From NCBI GenBank assembly GCA_000403335.2, contig KE159629.1:310001-374000 (forward strand): a stretch of DNA of 64,000 nucleotides. The letters are read 5' to 3'. Under the pieces are notes generated by a model, which did not search any database, was not told the origin of the DNA, and worked only from the letters and a program-made list of their open reading frames with translations. Position 1 is the stretch's first letter; each line of letters starts with the position of its first letter. Shown here piece after piece: positions 25,903 to 32,736 of the stretch. Origin of the DNA: Lachnospiraceae bacterium MD335 (GTDB lineage Bacteria > Bacillota > Clostridia > Lachnospirales > Lachnospiraceae). A program made the position numbers and the translations under genes.

Positions 25903-27049
25903 AATTTCAAAACTTTATAATTTGCCTGATATTTCCTTTGTCGATGATATATCATACGAAAAAATTTTGAATGAAATGATCGCCGACTATGAAAAGAAGT
26001 ATCAGGAAGCAACCGGCCGGAAGGTTACGCTTCGCCCTGGCGACAAAGAACATATCCATTTAAGGATAGAAGCCGGTCAATACTTTCAAATGTATCAAAT
26101 ATTAGATAATGCGGCGAAAATGAATCTTTTGAAATACTCAAAGGGGAATTTCTTGCGGCATTTAGGCGCCTTCAAGAAAACCTTTATTCAGGAGCCGAAA
26201 CCGGCAGTTGTGACGGCGCGGTTCACACTTTCGGAGATAAGAAAGGACGTGATCTATATTCCGCAAGGAACCAGAATCACGGCCGGCGATGGCGTGTATT
26301 TTGCTACTGATGATTACGCGGAAGTAAAAGCTGGCGATTCCTTCGTCGATGTTGACTGTACGTGCGAAACCGTCGGGGAAGTCGGGAATGAATATATTGT
26401 CGGACAGATTGAAACGATCGTCGATCCGGTTCCTTATGTTTCCGGCGTATCGAATATTACAAAATCAGACGGCGGAACCGGCGAAGAATCCGAAGACAGC
26501 TTCCGGGAAAGAATCTTCCTGGCGCCTTCTTCTTATTCCGTGGCCGGCCCGGCGGACGCTTACGAATACTGGGTGAAGCAGTATAACAGCGCCGCGATTG
26601 AAGATGTGAAAATATATGAACCGACGGAAGCGGTCGTTGATATTCGGATCCTTCTGGTTGGCGGCGCCCTTCCCAGCAAGACGTTTTGTTCCGGTTGCCT
26701 GGAATATTTACGGGAAAACCCGATCATACCGCTAACAGACAATGATCTTGTGGCGGCGCCTGATGTGGTGAATTATAACCTGAAAGCGGTTTACTATATC
26801 GCACGAAGCGACTTGAACAATATCAAGGTGATTCAGGAATCCATTGAAGCCGCAAAAGAAACATATTTAAACTGGCAGAGGACGAAGATCGGCCGGGACA
26901 TAAACCCGGACGCATTGACGGAATTTGTTCGCGCCGCCGGCGGAAAGCGCGTTGTGATAACTTCGCCGGTATTTACGCCGATTCCTGAAACGTCGATCGC
27001 TATGGAAAAAACGGTTGAATTTACATACGGTGGAATAGAAGATGATTAA
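25892..27049 (+). CDS. Baseplate J family protein
   Basis: This 385-residue wedge protein has the J family pattern: ...YEKILNEMIADYEKKYQ near the start, the QGTRITAGDGVYFATDD beta region about 135 and GGTGEESEDSFRERIFLAP (about 195-215), the most conserved segment of the family. It is coupled to the next gene by 8 bp. It ties the hub to the sheath in contractile baseplates. Confidence 0.92.
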   Translation: MQNEISKLYNLPDISFVDDISYEKILNEMIADYEKKYQEATGRKVTLRPGDKEHIHLRIEAGQYFQMYQILDNAAKMNLLKYSKGNFLRHLGAFKKTFIQEPKPAVVTARFTLSEIRKDVIYIPQGTRITAGDGVYFATDDYAEVKAGDSFVDVDCTCETVGEVGNEYIVGQIETIVDPVPYVSGVSNITKSDGGTGEESEDSFRERIFLAPSSYSVAGPADAYEYWVKQYNSAAIEDVKIYEPTEAVVDIRILLVGGALPSKTFCSGCLEYLRENPIIPLTDNDLVAAPDVVNYNLKAVYYIARSDLNNIKVIQESIEAAKETYLNWQRTKIGRDINPDALTEFVRAAGGKRVVITSPVFTPIPETSIAMEKTVEFTYGGIEDD

Positions 27050-28256
27050 ACTTGCAGATTACCGGACAGAAAACGCGCTTCCGTCCGAAATGAAGACGCC
27101 TGAAAGAATCGCCCTTTCGTATGCCTTCGATATGCAGAAAAAGAAATATTTTGACCGTGTGCGGCGTGTTTATATATGGGCGGATCTGGAATCCGTGTCT
27201 GATGATAAACTTGACTTTCTGGCGGTCGAAAACCGTGTTTTATTTTACAGCCCTTCCCTTTCGCCCAGCGTGAAGCGGAACATGATCCGAAATTCTATTT
27301 ATTGGTATATGAAGCTGGGGACGCGCCAGGCGATGGAAGAAATGATTGATACGGTATTCGGAAATGAAAATACTTCCGTCGAAGAATGGTTCACCTATGC
27401 CGGAGAACCTTTTCATTTTCGGATTGCCGTCGGAACCGAAGTCACGCAGACGTCAATCAAGGAATTTTTGAAATATTTAAACCAGGTAAAAAATGCGCGG
27501 TCGCGCTTCGATTACATGGTTTTTCAAAATGGAATAAAACTGGTATTCAAACAGATTTCAGAATTTCAATCTTTTGTTTATACATTTTGCGGTGAATTTG
27601 AGTGTGGCACTTATCCGAATACAGAAGTCGGATTCTTGCCTTCCGAAGTGAATATCACGCTGGAAGGCGCCAGCGATAGCGCAAATACAGTATATACAAA
27701 CGCCGGAACCACGCCGGATATTTCCGTCGGTGCCGCGCTTGTAGAAAACCAGATTGATTTTCAGGCCGCTTCCGAAGAAGGTTTTTCTGTCTATTCTTCG
27801 GACAGTGAAACAGAATCAGGAACCGCGCCGGATATTTCCGTCGGCGCGGCATTTACCGACGGCCAGATCGACATTCAGGCCGCTTCCGAAGAAGGTTTTT
27901 CTGTCTATTCTTCGGACAGCGAAGCGGAATCGGGAACCACGCCGGATATTTCCGTCGGCGGCCAGTTTGCCGAAGCCGAAGTCGATATTGAAGGCGAATC
28001 CGGGACGGGTTCAACGGTTTATCAGGAAACCGGAACCGCGCCGGATATTTCCGTTGGCGCACAATTTAACGAAGTTCAAGTCGGGCTTGAAGGCGAATCC
28101 GGGACGGGTTCAACCGTCTACACCGAAACCGGGACAATTCCCGATCCTTCGGTCGGATTTTCCGGCGCGGAAAGCGGCGTTTCCGCGGCTGGGGAAAGTA
28201 CCGGCTATGACTTATATTATAACACTGACGCGGACAAATACGCCGCGGAAGAATAG
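27042..28256 (+). CDS. Tail protein I with C-terminal repeats
   Basis: The 404-residue protein has an N-terminal P2 gpI-like region (residues 1-170: ALPSEMKTPERIALSYAFDM ... WYMKLGTRQAMEEMIDTVFG). Residues about 220-390 consist of five imperfect repeats of 35-38 residues with the core TxPDISVG and ESG...VY. Two of the repeat units are 114 bp apart with a nearly identical 44-bp core (27760 and 27874). The repeats probably extend the fibre attachment region. The repeats also sustain a long open shadow frame. Confidence 0.82.
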   Translation: MIKLADYRTENALPSEMKTPERIALSYAFDMQKKKYFDRVRRVYIWADLESVSDDKLDFLAVENRVLFYSPSLSPSVKRNMIRNSIYWYMKLGTRQAMEEMIDTVFGNENTSVEEWFTYAGEPFHFRIAVGTEVTQTSIKEFLKYLNQVKNARSRFDYMVFQNGIKLVFKQISEFQSFVYTFCGEFECGTYPNTEVGFLPSEVNITLEGASDSANTVYTNAGTTPDISVGAALVENQIDFQAASEEGFSVYSSDSETESGTAPDISVGAAFTDGQIDIQAASEEGFSVYSSDSEAESGTTPDISVGGQFAEAEVDIEGESGTGSTVYQETGTAPDISVGAQFNEVQVGLEGESGTGSTVYTETGTIPDPSVGFSGAESGVSAAGESTGYDLYYNTDADKYAAEE

Positions 28257-29657: not shown

Positions 29658-30716
29658 ATGAAAAGTTACAATTTTGACAGCTTGAAATTTGCAACGGAAG
29701 GGCTGACTGGCTTCGGGTGTACCGTGATCCAGGATAACGCGAATCTTCCTTCCTTCATGATCCCGATCAACAAGCGCACAAACGCGCAGTTGTACGAAGG
29801 CGGAAGCCAGAAGACACATTCCGCCTTCGTTGTCGATGATGTGGAATACAAGCGATTCTTTATGAGTAAATTTTTGAATTGTATCATCAACGGCCGCGCC
29901 TATTCCTGGCCCGGCATGGATCCGGCGGCGGTGATTGATTACGACGCTTCACACGCGGCTTGCAACGCAAAAGGCGCCGGCTTCCACCTGATGAGTATTC
30001 CCGAACGTGCGGTCATTAACCACTTAATCTATAAAAGTGGTTTTGTTCCGCGCGGAAATACGCAGTACGGGAAAAGTCATTCCCACACATACGAAGCCGG
30101 AGAGCAAACCGCAGACGAAAGCGACGGAAGCGGCGGACGGCGCACAACCAGGACGGCGACGGGATCCGGCCCGGCGACGTGGTTCCACGACGGGACAAGG
30201 AACGGAATCGCCGACTGGGTGGGAAACATCTGGAAATGGAGTTCCGGTATGCGTATTAAGGACGGAGAGATTCAGATCTTCGTTGGCAACCTGGCCGCGA
30301 AACAGGTCGCGCACACGGACGCAAGCACTTACTGGAAGGCTATTCTTCCCACGGGCGCACTTGTGGAGCCTGGAACGGCCGGAACGCTGAAATATACAAA
30401 GGATCTCAAGATTGCAACCGCGACGGGCGGAGCCGGAACAAACAGCACGTCGAATTTCGGAAGCCTGGCCGCCGCTTCTGGCGTGACAATCCCCGAAATT
30501 CTGTATGAGTTAATGCTTGCGCCGAAATCCGGCGTAACGCATAGCGGCGGATTTTGGATCAATACCGAAGGTGAACGCTTGCCGCTCGTGGGCGCCAGCT
30601 TCAACAACACGTCGTACTCTGGGCCTTCCGCGTTGTATTTGTCCCACGTCCGGTCGCACGTGAGCACGAGCTTCGGCTTCTTTTCCGCTTTTATGGAGTT
30701 GGAATCTGTAATCTGA
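29658..30716 (+). CDS. DGR target: FGE-sulfatase/C-type-lectin-fold tail protein
   Basis: This 352-residue protein is the diversified receptor-binding candidate. ATG 29658 follows AGAAGGTG by 9 bp; a GTG at 29646 would lie inside the previous gene. A formylglycine-generating-enzyme-type fold is shown by the central WFHDGTRNGIADWVGNIWKW (about 174-195), seen in many DGR target proteins. The last 47 residues hold the variable repeat (about 306-344) and end in ELESVI. Nine codons (310, 320, 327, 329, 330, 334, 336, 338, 339) differ from the template. Its place at the end of the tail module agrees with host binding. Confidence 0.88.
   Translation: MKSYNFDSLKFATEGLTGFGCTVIQDNANLPSFMIPINKRTNAQLYEGGSQKTHSAFVVDDVEYKRFFMSKFLNCIINGRAYSWPGMDPAAVIDYDASHAACNAKGAGFHLMSIPERAVINHLIYKSGFVPRGNTQYGKSHSHTYEAGEQTADESDGSGGRRTTRTATGSGPATWFHDGTRNGIADWVGNIWKWSSGMRIKDGEIQIFVGNLAAKQVAHTDASTYWKAILPTGALVEPGTAGTLKYTKDLKIATATGGAGTNSTSNFGSLAAASGVTIPEILYELMLAPKSGVTHSGGFWINTEGERLPLVGASFNNTSYSGPSALYLSHVRSHVSTSFGFFSAFMELESVI
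30574..30690 (+). repeat. DGR variable repeat (VR)
   Basis: A 117-bp stretch inside the target gene matches the template repeat at offset +663. The only differences are at 30585, 30615, 30636, 30642, 30643, 30645, 30657, 30664, 30670 and 30672. At each, the template has A and the VR has C (4), T (4) or G (2). The last 18 bp (30673-30690) are unchanged, fitting a mutagenic-homing initiation region. Confidence 0.92.
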
Positions 30717-30732
30717 AAACTGTAAATCTGTT

Positions 30733-30754
30733 AGGGGCCACGATAGTGGCCCCT
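30733..30754 (+). terminator. Perfect 9-bp hairpin downstream of VR (DGR cruciform and/or terminator)
   Basis: AGGGGCCAC (30733-30741), loop GATA, then GTGGCCCCT (30746-30754), followed by TTTGTTTTT. A GC-rich hairpin with a 4-nt loop just 3' of the VR is needed for retrohoming in the Bordetella phage DGR. The T-rich tail also allows termination of the tail transcript. Confidence 0.72.
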
Positions 30755-30785
30755 TTGTTTTTAGAAACAGAAAGGAACCTGAAAA

Positions 30786-31211
30786 GTGGGACAACAAAGA
30801 AGATATGATGATCGGCCGCGCGGCAATCCCGAAACCGACGAAGGACGGGATCAAAGAAGCGGCTTGATTATATTGCAGAAAACGAAAGACGCTATGAAAT
30901 ATTTATATACTTCGTGGGTGAAATATCCCAGGAGTGAAAAGTTGGGGTTTGTTTCGGACTATAAGAAATGTTTATTTCAATTCCTGATTTACATTATCAC
31001 GGCGCAAAAGAAGTATTACAAAAAGACCACGCTTCAAGACGCCGACGTCCAGCTTGAACTTCTTCGACTTTTCAACGATCTTTCGTATGATATGAGATTT
31101 ATTGATGAAAAGCGTTATCAGTTGATTTCCGAAAGGCTTAATGAAATAGGACGGCTTCTGGGCGGCTGGATAAAGTCACAAAAGGAAACCAGCACAACAA
31201 ACGGGAAATAA
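30786..31211 (+). CDS. avd: DGR accessory variability determinant (Avd)
   Basis: A 141-residue helical, basic protein of the Avd/S23-like four-helix family: residues about 30-130 include SWVKYPRSEKLGFVSDYKKC and RLFNDLSYDMRFIDEKRY. Avd forms a pentamer that binds the DGR reverse transcriptase and RNA. The start is GTG 30786 with AAAGGA 10 bp upstream. It lies between VR and TR, the classic place. Confidence 0.85.
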   Translation: MGQQRRYDDRPRGNPETDEGRDQRSGLIILQKTKDAMKYLYTSWVKYPRSEKLGFVSDYKKCLFQFLIYIITAQKKYYKKTTLQDADVQLELLRLFNDLSYDMRFIDEKRYQLISERLNEIGRLLGGWIKSQKETSTTNGK

Positions 31212-31236
31212 TATTCCCGGTGGGAATAGGTCAAAT

Positions 31237-31353
31237 AACGCTTGCCGATCGTGGGCGCCAGCTTCAACAACACGTCGAACTCTGGGCCTTCCGCGTTGAA
31301 TTTGAACAACGTCCGGTCGAACGTGAACACGAACATCGGCTTCTTTTCCGCTT
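31237..31353 (+). repeat. DGR template repeat (TR)
   Basis: The 117-bp template is non-coding and has about 25 adenines, many set in AAC/AAT triplets in the reading phase of the VR. Read as codons, AAC substitution can give many residues but not stop codons, which is typical of DGR templates. It lies 26 bp after avd and 258 bp before the reverse transcriptase gene. Confidence 0.92.
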
Positions 31354-31499
31354 ACCCTTTGAGCCAGACGGGAAAGTTTACGGACTTTTCACAGTGCATG
31401 AAAGGGAAAGGGATCTATCCCCGTTCTGGCGAAGCCAGAAGAATTGACGCCGCTATCAATGCAGTTAGTACCGAACCAGAAGCCGGCCAGGGCTGAAAG

Positions 31500-31595
31500 G
31501 GAAGGGCTAGAAGGGTGTAACGGGTAGCGCCGCGCCTTCGGCCGAAAGCCTGGGCGCAAGTCCCGTCTGTACTGGCATACAGACGGTAAAACATA
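31500..31595 (+). ncRNA. Structured spacer between TR and RT (probable part of DGR RNA)
   Basis: No gene fits here. A perfect 9-bp hairpin CCGTCTGTA / TACAGACGG (31563-31571 and 31578-31586, CTGGCA loop) follows a GC-rich fold with outer stem 31527-31531 to 31553-31557. In the Bordetella DGR, the RNA 3' of the TR primes and templates cDNA synthesis. The structure here could do that, or could control RT translation. Confidence 0.55.
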
Positions 31596-31611
31596 GAAAG
31601 GGAAAAGGCTA

Positions 31612-32736
31612 TTGAAAACTTTCGATGTGACACACGAAGAAGTGATCGACTTCGGAAATTTGCTGGAAGGGCATAAAAACGCTTCGCAAAGCAAACATTA
31701 CCGCGACGAAAATCTTGCCTTTGAAGCGCATAGGGAAGATGAATTGATCGATCTTCATAACAAACTAACCTATTTCCCGAAAGACGGGGTTCCGGGAAAT
31801 CCCCTGGAATCGTCCTATCATGTAGGGAAGTATCGAAAGAAGAAAATCTATGAACCGAAGCCGCGGATCGTCATGGCTTTATCATATCCCGATCGCGTCG
31901 TACAATGGGCGTATTACCAGAAATTAAACCCGTTGTTTGACCGGCAGTTCATAACACATAGTTACGGTTGCCGCGTTGGGAAAGGAACCACAAAGGCGAG
32001 AGAACAGCTTCAAACGTGGCTTCGTAAGGCTTCCAGGAGTTCTAAAAAGTGGTATGTGCTGAAATTGGATATAGCAAAATATTTTTACCGCGTGGATCAT
32101 GAAGTCCTGATGAAGATTCTTTCAAGGCACATAAAAGACGAACTTATCCTTCGGGATCTGTATAAACTGATAAATTGTGAAGACACGGCCTTCGGCCTTC
32201 CGGCTGGCGTACAACCGGAATTATGCAAACAAGAAGACTGGATTTACAATAGGGGTATGCCGATCGGAAACCTGACTTCTCAAATGTTCGCTAATATTTA
32301 CTTAAACGAATTAGATCAGTTTTGCAAACATGATTTACATATCCGTTATTATATCCGGTACATGGACGACATTATTATTCTTTGGCCGGATAAAAACGAA
32401 TTGTTTCAAATACTGGCAGAGATCGAACGGTTCCTTGATGAAGAACTTCGCCTTGAATTAAATAAAAAGACCTGTATTCGCCCGGCCTGGCTTCCGGTTA
32501 CGTTCGTCGGAGCGCAGATCACGGCGAAAAAGATCATTATGCGAAAGAGTACGCGAAAGCGTATGTTCCTCCGCATGAAGTTTATAAAAGGACTTTTTGA
32601 AGCTGGGAAGATAGCCTTTGAAAAGGTCAACAATACAATGCAAAGTTATTTCGGCCTGATACAGCATTTCACGGCCGGAAATCTGTTAAGAAAAATTATA
32701 GACGAATTTTCCTTCCGAATATTCAACAATTCGTAA
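31612..32736 (+). CDS. DGR reverse transcriptase
   Basis: This 374-residue enzyme copies the TR RNA with adenine-directed errors. Motif A is LKLDIAKYF (D153). The DGR-type motif 4 is RGMPIGNLTSQMFANIYLNE (from 214), where group II intron and retroviral enzymes have a QG motif. The catalytic motif is YMDD (250-253). The thumb-like C-terminus is short, with no maturase or endonuclease domain. Start is TTG 31612 with AAAAGG 3-8 bp upstream. A terminator overlaps its stop. Confidence 0.93.
   Translation: MKTFDVTHEEVIDFGNLLEGHKNASQSKHYRDENLAFEAHREDELIDLHNKLTYFPKDGVPGNPLESSYHVGKYRKKKIYEPKPRIVMALSYPDRVVQWAYYQKLNPLFDRQFITHSYGCRVGKGTTKAREQLQTWLRKASRSSKKWYVLKLDIAKYFYRVDHEVLMKILSRHIKDELILRDLYKLINCEDTAFGLPAGVQPELCKQEDWIYNRGMPIGNLTSQMFANIYLNELDQFCKHDLHIRYYIRYMDDIIILWPDKNELFQILAEIERFLDEELRLELNKKTCIRPAWLPVTFVGAQITAKKIIMRKSTRKRMFLRMKFIKGLFEAGKIAFEKVNNTMQSYFGLIQHFTAGNLLRKIIDEFSFRIFNNS

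Follow-up and report, generated by a model that had tools for sequence, protein, structure and literature searches.

The Retroelement and Its Parts

The subject of this study is a diversity-generating retroelement (DGR) in the tail module of a prophage of Lachnospiraceae bacterium MD335. The window refers throughout to the whole stretch of DNA that was analyzed, 64,000 nucleotides of contig KE159629.1 (GenBank assembly GCA_000403335.2, positions 310,001 to 374,000). Positions are those of the window unless a locus is named, and all features of the cassette lie on the forward (+) strand. The tail-module target gene (29658..30716, ATG at 29658) encodes an FGE-type C-type lectin (CLec) variable protein of 352 amino acids that matches phrog_2889 (E 4e-105) and has the FD-bearing N-terminal segment typical of tail targets. 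The first variable repeat, VR1 (30574..30690), occupies the 3' end of this gene and is followed by the 14-letter element AACTGTAAATCTGT (30718..30731) and by a hairpin or cruciform (30733..30754), 42 nt downstream of VR1, with a 9-bp stem and a GATA loop of the GRNA type. Next come the accessory variability determinant, Avd (30786..31211; bAvd of Pfam, E 3e-23; phrog_3206, E 6e-29), and the template repeat, TR (31237..31353), which holds 25 adenines. A structured RNA spans the 3' end of TR and the first part of the spacer that separates TR from the reverse transcriptase (RT) gene (31347..31439, with covarying helices on to about 31557). The RT itself (31612..32736; 374 amino acids, TTG start, YMDD motif) matches RVT_1 of Pfam (E 3e-23) and phrog_1423 (E 4e-117), and its best match in the Protein Data Bank (PDB) is 8ub7 (E 2e-32); other RVT_1 matches in the genome are two open frames of 612-637 amino acids and one shorter frame. 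Because genes for tail tube FII, Baseplate_J and Tail_P2_I lie upstream of the cassette, and XhlA and an endolysin-like gene downstream, the cassette sits in a tail module, and the phage's tail is P2-like.

A first-pass annotation, made from the letters alone, had described a complete, recently active DGR with target, Avd, TR, RT and hairpin in the expected order, and we recover all five in that order; a frameshift in RT, which it had named as grounds for doubt, is absent from the assembled sequence, where the frame is open. Its repeat coordinates are reproduced exactly: VR1 and TR form a direct repeat of 117 bp with 10 mismatches, 10/10 at TR adenines. For such a pattern the computed hypergeometric p is 3.7e-8, where the hand estimate had been about 2e-7. 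Nine codons are altered, as had been claimed (Ile to Leu, Ile to Phe, Asn to Tyr twice, Asn to Ser three times and Asn to His twice). A chance repeat was considered and is ruled out by this p value together with the comparison of sister prophages.

In that comparison, a sister prophage from another assembly (L016) is collinear with the window over 9122 bp and differs at 10 positions. Nine of these lie in VR1, all at TR adenines, and the remaining one is a single-base change within RT; the two TRs are identical. Adenine-only variation in VR with a fixed TR was what the annotation had proposed to look for among sister isolates, and it is what the assembled sisters display. Since all parts are present and the sister differs almost only in VR1 at TR adenines, with TR unchanged, the DGR is complete and, as judged from sequence, acted recently. 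The same pattern extends to relatives, where 213 of 216 mismatches between VR1 and TR fall at TR adenines in a scan whose scoring favors adenine mismatches (16 of the 18 loci L005-L022, whose RTs are at least 77% identical), and 224 of 227 do so when the more distant L025 is added. Two short contigs (L006, L012) yielded no VR/TR pair, L007 and L020 match each other exactly in VR and TR, and the distant loci L026-L043 contributed no count, being either on the minus strand and skipped or without a pair. Taken by itself, the window's DGR is a standard, good element of known type.

A Second Target of the Same Template

When the whole genome was queried with TR, a third copy appeared at G000:C13:304713-304816 (L048:12713-12816, or about -5287 to -5184 in window coordinates), which is 5.3 kb left of the window and 36,524 bp from TR. 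This second variable repeat, VR2, matches TR positions 14-117 in the same reading frame with 5 mismatches, 5/5 at adenines, and it lies at the C terminus of a 318-amino-acid paralog of the tail target that likewise matches phrog_2889. Apart from TR, VR1 and VR2, the only genomic match was one of 22 bp at C1:588091 (E 0.145), which we take as chance. The identical 14 letters of AACTGTAAATCTGT also stand downstream of VR2 and are again followed, 42 nt from the end of the repeat, by a GATA-loop hairpin; its stem has 6 bp and differs in its letters from that behind VR1. DGR hairpins are described as having stems of 7-10 bp, GRNA loops and a distance of 4-34 bp from VR (PMC3240598; the papers cited here by PMC number were available in part, and our statements on them hold for those parts). 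Both hairpins have the GRNA loop, and both distances are slightly beyond that range. In Dulem virus 37, a 45-bp stretch containing this hairpin is identical behind both targets. The earlier account of a tail DGR thus stands and is incomplete, in that the same TR also feeds a target in an early region just outside the window.

The early target is the third open reading frame (of at least 70 amino acids) in a rightward series that begins near a divergent helix-turn-helix (HTH) repressor gene. Between the repressor and the series are two divergent promoter-like sites with 11/12 matches each, which are suggestive only, as the scan returned 7 sites in total against 4.6 expected. Further right are genes for a TubZ-like protein, a DnaD-like replisome organizer and a DnaC-like loader, and to the left, within L048, is a serine integrase gene. 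The tubulin gene of this region, of TubZ/PhuZ-like type, lies at L048:14177-15289. PADLOC has no family for the early target or for its four tested neighbors.

Several comparisons bear on how VR2 has varied. Between the window's prophage and its sister, L048 11500-13499 holds only 11 substitutions, each of them within VR2 and at a TR adenine; over 12829 aligned bases, which take in the wider early region and part of the host flank, there are 109. In a second pair (L072/L057), positions 1636-2560 contain 9 differences, again all in VR2 and all at adenines, and the pair additionally differs at 19 sites near the gene start. Over 11 prophages of the window's own group, 118 of 124 mismatches between VR2 and its own TR (TR positions 15-117) are at adenines, or 100 of 106 without the duplicate L059, and VR2 on contig L100 has 13/13 at adenines when compared with the window's TR. 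Where the TRs of relatives diverge from that of the window at non-adenine sites, VR2 follows its own TR at 94/97 sites and VR1 at 97/97. Because VR2 tracks its own TR in this manner and its mismatches are biased toward adenines, it is overwritten from TR across 36 kb; as the sequences show, one TR feeds both VR1 and VR2. In one prophage (L056, G103), 3 of the 5 non-adenine differences in VR2 match the window's TR, as if part of that repeat predates the present TR.

Spread and Ancestry of the Early Target

The early paralog was sought in 18 genomes or records with RT relatives. In nine of these it is present far from the tail target (in ten own-group prophages and in the more distant G110:C208), and in the other nine the contig bearing the tail target extends less than 36 kb upstream of it, so that no absence is demonstrated for that place. 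With the window's prophage included, 11 own-group prophages carry the early target, which are all 11 whose contigs reach that far. Beyond the group, the mismatches of second targets fall at adenines in G110:C208 (7/7), G238 (17/17), G373 (15/15) and Faecalibacterium phage FP_Lagaffe (11/11), and in G121, when compared with a TR from another contig of that genome, at 12/13 (contig C20) and 6/8 (contig C88).

The neighbors of the early target are early genes in 7/7 arrangements examined. A replication initiator (phrog_3584) adjoins it in G110:C208, G238 and G373, and primase and single-stranded DNA-binding protein (SSB) genes do so in G121:C20. In FP_Lagaffe it is preceded by integrase and HTH genes and followed by genes for recombination; exonuclease, Gam, Erf and SSB are among its neighbors there, and in Dulem virus 37 it is accompanied by HTH, methyltransferase, restriction-alleviation and integrase genes. 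Matches to phrog_2889, many of them weak and partial, occur in 12/299 genomes of the host family, 26/391 of the class and 5/38 of the genus. The two-target layout is not universal among DGR phages; G129, G489 and G577, for example, have only a target beside its TR. One contig (L142, G121:C88:152-2436) has two tandem targets, and in the tree described below the two fall with the early targets.

In a tree of 32 targets from which the VR had been removed, a single branch with support of 100/99 separates 17 tail targets from 15 others, the latter being 12 distal or early rows and 3 that were not classified beforehand. A second tree of 41 rows, nine more than the first, had the N terminus cut as well (in 39 of the 41 rows, T_G121C10 and X_G168 having been missed), and again 21 tail and 12 early rows are split at 100/99, with eight ungrouped rows falling on both sides. 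Both trees omit two G246 proteins, and the second omits L121, L127, L113, L131 and L132 (repeats of rows already present), L115 and L124 (the G246 proteins), L151 and L153; E_Lagaffe is flagged as a long branch in both. As the branch between tail and early targets stays at 100/99 with VR and N terminus removed, it argues for an old split that has been kept in parallel rather than for repeated local duplication.

The N termini can be set beside this division. An N-terminal segment with the dipeptide FD or YD at residues 4-7 is found in 16/17 tail rows, and the 17th (L021) has it when read from an upstream TTG start; it is found at that place in 0/12 early rows. There are exceptions to this rule: L149 and L152, which lie beside a TR, are without the segment at that place, and in the early protein of Dulem virus 37 the N terminus is longer and includes a VDSL stretch that aligns at the FD/YD position. 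The only sequence relative found in the PDB for either target is TaqVP (5vf4; PMC6328139), the variable protein of a Thermus aquaticus prophage DGR, which has an FGE-type CLec fold. It is matched by the tail target (E 8e-57), by an early profile (E 8e-33) and by a mixed profile built from 9 tail rows and 6 early rows (E 5e-72). The first-pass annotation had proposed a comparison of the tail target with FGE/CLec DGR proteins, and the tail target alone does match this solved protein. The early profile aligns only its residues 13-202 to TaqVP 27-241, so that the N-terminal segment of TaqVP is unmatched; the mixed profile places a DSLRQAV stretch of TaqVP at the position of the tail motif.

The Template RNA and the Host Phage

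The spacer between TR and RT folds into helices that compensatory changes have preserved: both partners have changed in 14 of 51 pairs, and the share of paired cells, 97.9%, compares with 93.2% in shuffled controls and 38-55% once the partners are slid out of register. A covariance model covering the end of TR and the first part of the spacer found 10 distant full-length loci (E 3e-6 to 0.1) among 23 sources. In all seven with a known TR (L025, L084, L133, L135, L137, L139 and L140) the match starts at its 3' end; the other three loci are L149, L152 and L023. The model misses FP_Lagaffe, Dulem virus 37 and L150, all of which have a TR, and also L146, L147 and L028. An alignment fitted to the model has 14 distinct rows, in which 20/28 pairs change on both sides compared with a shuffled mean of 13.1. 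Rfam 15 gave no match in the window. The idea of a structured spacer is already known, because it has been given for Bordetella phage BPP-1, in which the spacer folds and recruits RT-Avd (PMC12875486).

The window also contains a terminase GpA gene. Together with the genes for tail tube FII, Baseplate_J and Tail_P2_I and with the serine integrase of L048, it supports a temperate phage with a P2-like tail, and we regard the host phage as temperate and probably contractile-tailed. A 13-bp word common to L048:6279 and window 36504 was considered as the exact attachment (att) site and rejected; it falls within GC-rich inverted repeats and so does not fix the ends of the prophage. A DNA search returned no close relatives among phage records, and a plasmid search gave 12 records, each below 60% identity. 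The Tail_P2_I protein (open reading frame 27042-28256) has an imperfect repeat in its C-terminal part (28000-28156), with two 58-nt copies 99 bp apart.

Interpretation and Alternatives

We are confident that the window holds the complete, recently active DGR of a temperate, probably contractile-tailed phage, that one TR serves two targets and that the tail copy probably varies receptor binding; this confidence extends to the whole explanation with the exception of the role proposed for the early copy. By analogy with the model for BPP-1, RT-Avd would copy the RNA of TR and spacer, making errors at adenines, after which the cDNA would take the place of VR1 or VR2, guided by the 3' sequence that they share and by the downstream hairpins. 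In the tail protein, the outcome would be varied receptor binding. For the early protein our best guess, a tentative one, is that it is made early in infection, is absent from virions and has a changing binding partner inside the cell, which belongs to the host or to competing phages.

A number of observations weigh against this explanation. Two genomes with RT relatives, G015 and G113, which are among the nine with short contigs, have no early match anywhere in their whole assemblies (in G015, VR1 stands alone in bases 1-50000 of its contig), and among the 17 genomes whose phrog_2889 match exceeds 200 bits, only 5 have both branches of the family (G000, G121, G238, G373 and G075, the last counted by tree placement). 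In Dulem virus 37, 16/20 mismatches of the early VR are at adenines and 4/20 are off them, and the six own-group VR2 mismatches off adenines among the 124 comprise one in L055 and five in L056. The own-group VR2 stem of 6 bp is slightly under the published range, and a hairpin scan found no GRNA hairpin behind the two FP_Lagaffe targets. In L062 (G114:C19), one own-group prophage among the 11, the early gene has lost its frame at the left border of VR2. Lastly, the early location is compatible with a minor virion protein. In L062 the TR-like sequence begins further upstream than in other VR2s and resembles an off-register cDNA junction.

The early paralog could be a second virion adhesin, carried on particles and doubling the receptor-binding repertoire, much as has been suggested for Lagaffe_CP (PMC11792537). 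It belongs to the same family as the tail target and has the same solved relative, and nothing marks it as a membrane protein: in a simple hydropathy scan none of 12 early rows reaches 1.6 over 19 residues (highest mean 1.51), while three tail rows reach 1.64-1.79 near residues 270-291. An adhesin would nonetheless have to be reconciled with surroundings of early and replication genes in every arrangement examined, with the lack of the N-terminal segment that most tail targets have and with a position across a well-supported branch from them, and we consider this explanation unlikely.

It is much less likely that the early gene is a functionless bystander, variable only through its resemblance to TR. 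The broken frame in L062 and the many genomes that have a related tail target without an early one would fit such a view, but outside VR the early targets are under purifying selection (dN/dS 0.12-0.29 in six pairs, one with saturated dS), and the gene is kept in all own-group prophages with long enough contigs as well as in other lineages. Slightly less probable again is gene conversion of VR2 from VR1 in place of retrohoming of its own. The two repeats have template and frame in common, and in L022 they carry the same base at 6/8 positions changed in both; elsewhere such positions agree at 0/2 in the window's prophage and 0/2 in L016, and over 11 pairs at 28/71 (25/62 without the duplicate L020), all given as raw counts. 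VR2 moreover has its own hairpin and flanking element. The VR1 and VR2 of one prophage look mostly independent, with L022 as the clearest exception. A single-target tail DGR for receptor switching, the earlier account taken alone, fits everything within the window and is very hard to maintain, since just outside it the same TR feeds a further target.

The second target matters more than the ordinary DGR of the window. Early hypervariable phage proteins are suggested to be an old paralogous branch, which several phage lineages have kept next to the tail branch, rather than an oddity of single phages, and outside its variable part this branch is under purifying selection, yet it is still diversified. 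More speculatively still, temperate gut phages may keep a dedicated class of hypervariable proteins, ancient, early and intracellular, which a tail-encoded DGR mutates alongside the receptor-binding protein, so that one template RNA would diversify both entry and a function in intracellular conflict, such as counter-defense or the exclusion of rivals. A directly testable question follows, namely what is bound by a hypervariable phage protein whose gene lies among early genes, and the closely related prophages are a natural experiment, as almost nothing else differs around each variable region.

Comparison with Known Systems

BPP-1 (Mtd, Avd, TR, bRT) has one target, whereas the prophage described here has a second one, in its early region, besides that of the tail module. 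The systems are alike in gene order, in adenine-only changes from TR to VR and in the presence of Avd, and further in a GRNA-loop hairpin downstream of VR and a structured spacer between TR and RT (PMC3240598, PMC12875486). Mtd of BPP-1 is trimeric and has extra domains, whereas TaqVP, the closest solved relative here, is reported to be monomeric (PMC6328139).

Second targets have been described elsewhere. The Quimbyvirus DGR has one in a counter-defense neighborhood (PMC8008677), and the feature that defines that type, a second VR of the same TR outside the structural module, is found here as well. Quimbyvirus differs in belonging to another phage family with a Bacteroides host and in having its RT in three overlapping frames; the comparison is at the level of description. 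Four gut prophage species have distal second VRs near counter-defense genes, for example a DNA methyltransferase (PMC12629997). They resemble the present prophage, by description and not by sequence, in that the second VR is far from the RT cassette; the available text of that paper holds no paralog family, N-terminal motif or tree. A distant DGR target is reported for the Bacuni phages (PMC8143477), and tentaclins are found in two-target phages (PMC10743442). Remote targets would escape one survey, by its own statement (PMC8144416). One prophage has been reported with two phrog_2889 genes, Avd and RT, and the available text gives no two-target reading of it (PMC11318856). Table 3 of that paper lists LM41phi3 with Orf13 and Orf71 as phrog_2889, Avd as Orf73 and RT as Orf76, probably the same two-target layout, and files the phrog_2889 genes under host metabolism.

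FP_Lagaffe/Lagaffe_CP is like the present prophage in having two related targets and one TR, and its RT is 44% identical to the RT here. Two VRs are reported in Lagaffe_CP, Lelie and CP11, and both Lagaffe_CP targets are Mtd-like and may, according to the authors, both broaden host range (PMC11792537). The literature that we searched, within the parts available, contains no statement of an old split between early and tail paralogs, of a tail-type N-terminal segment or of adjacency to a replication initiator, although such statements may exist in print. A non-structural second target is known in kind, and what the present prophages add is a conserved, anciently separate early paralog of putative function.

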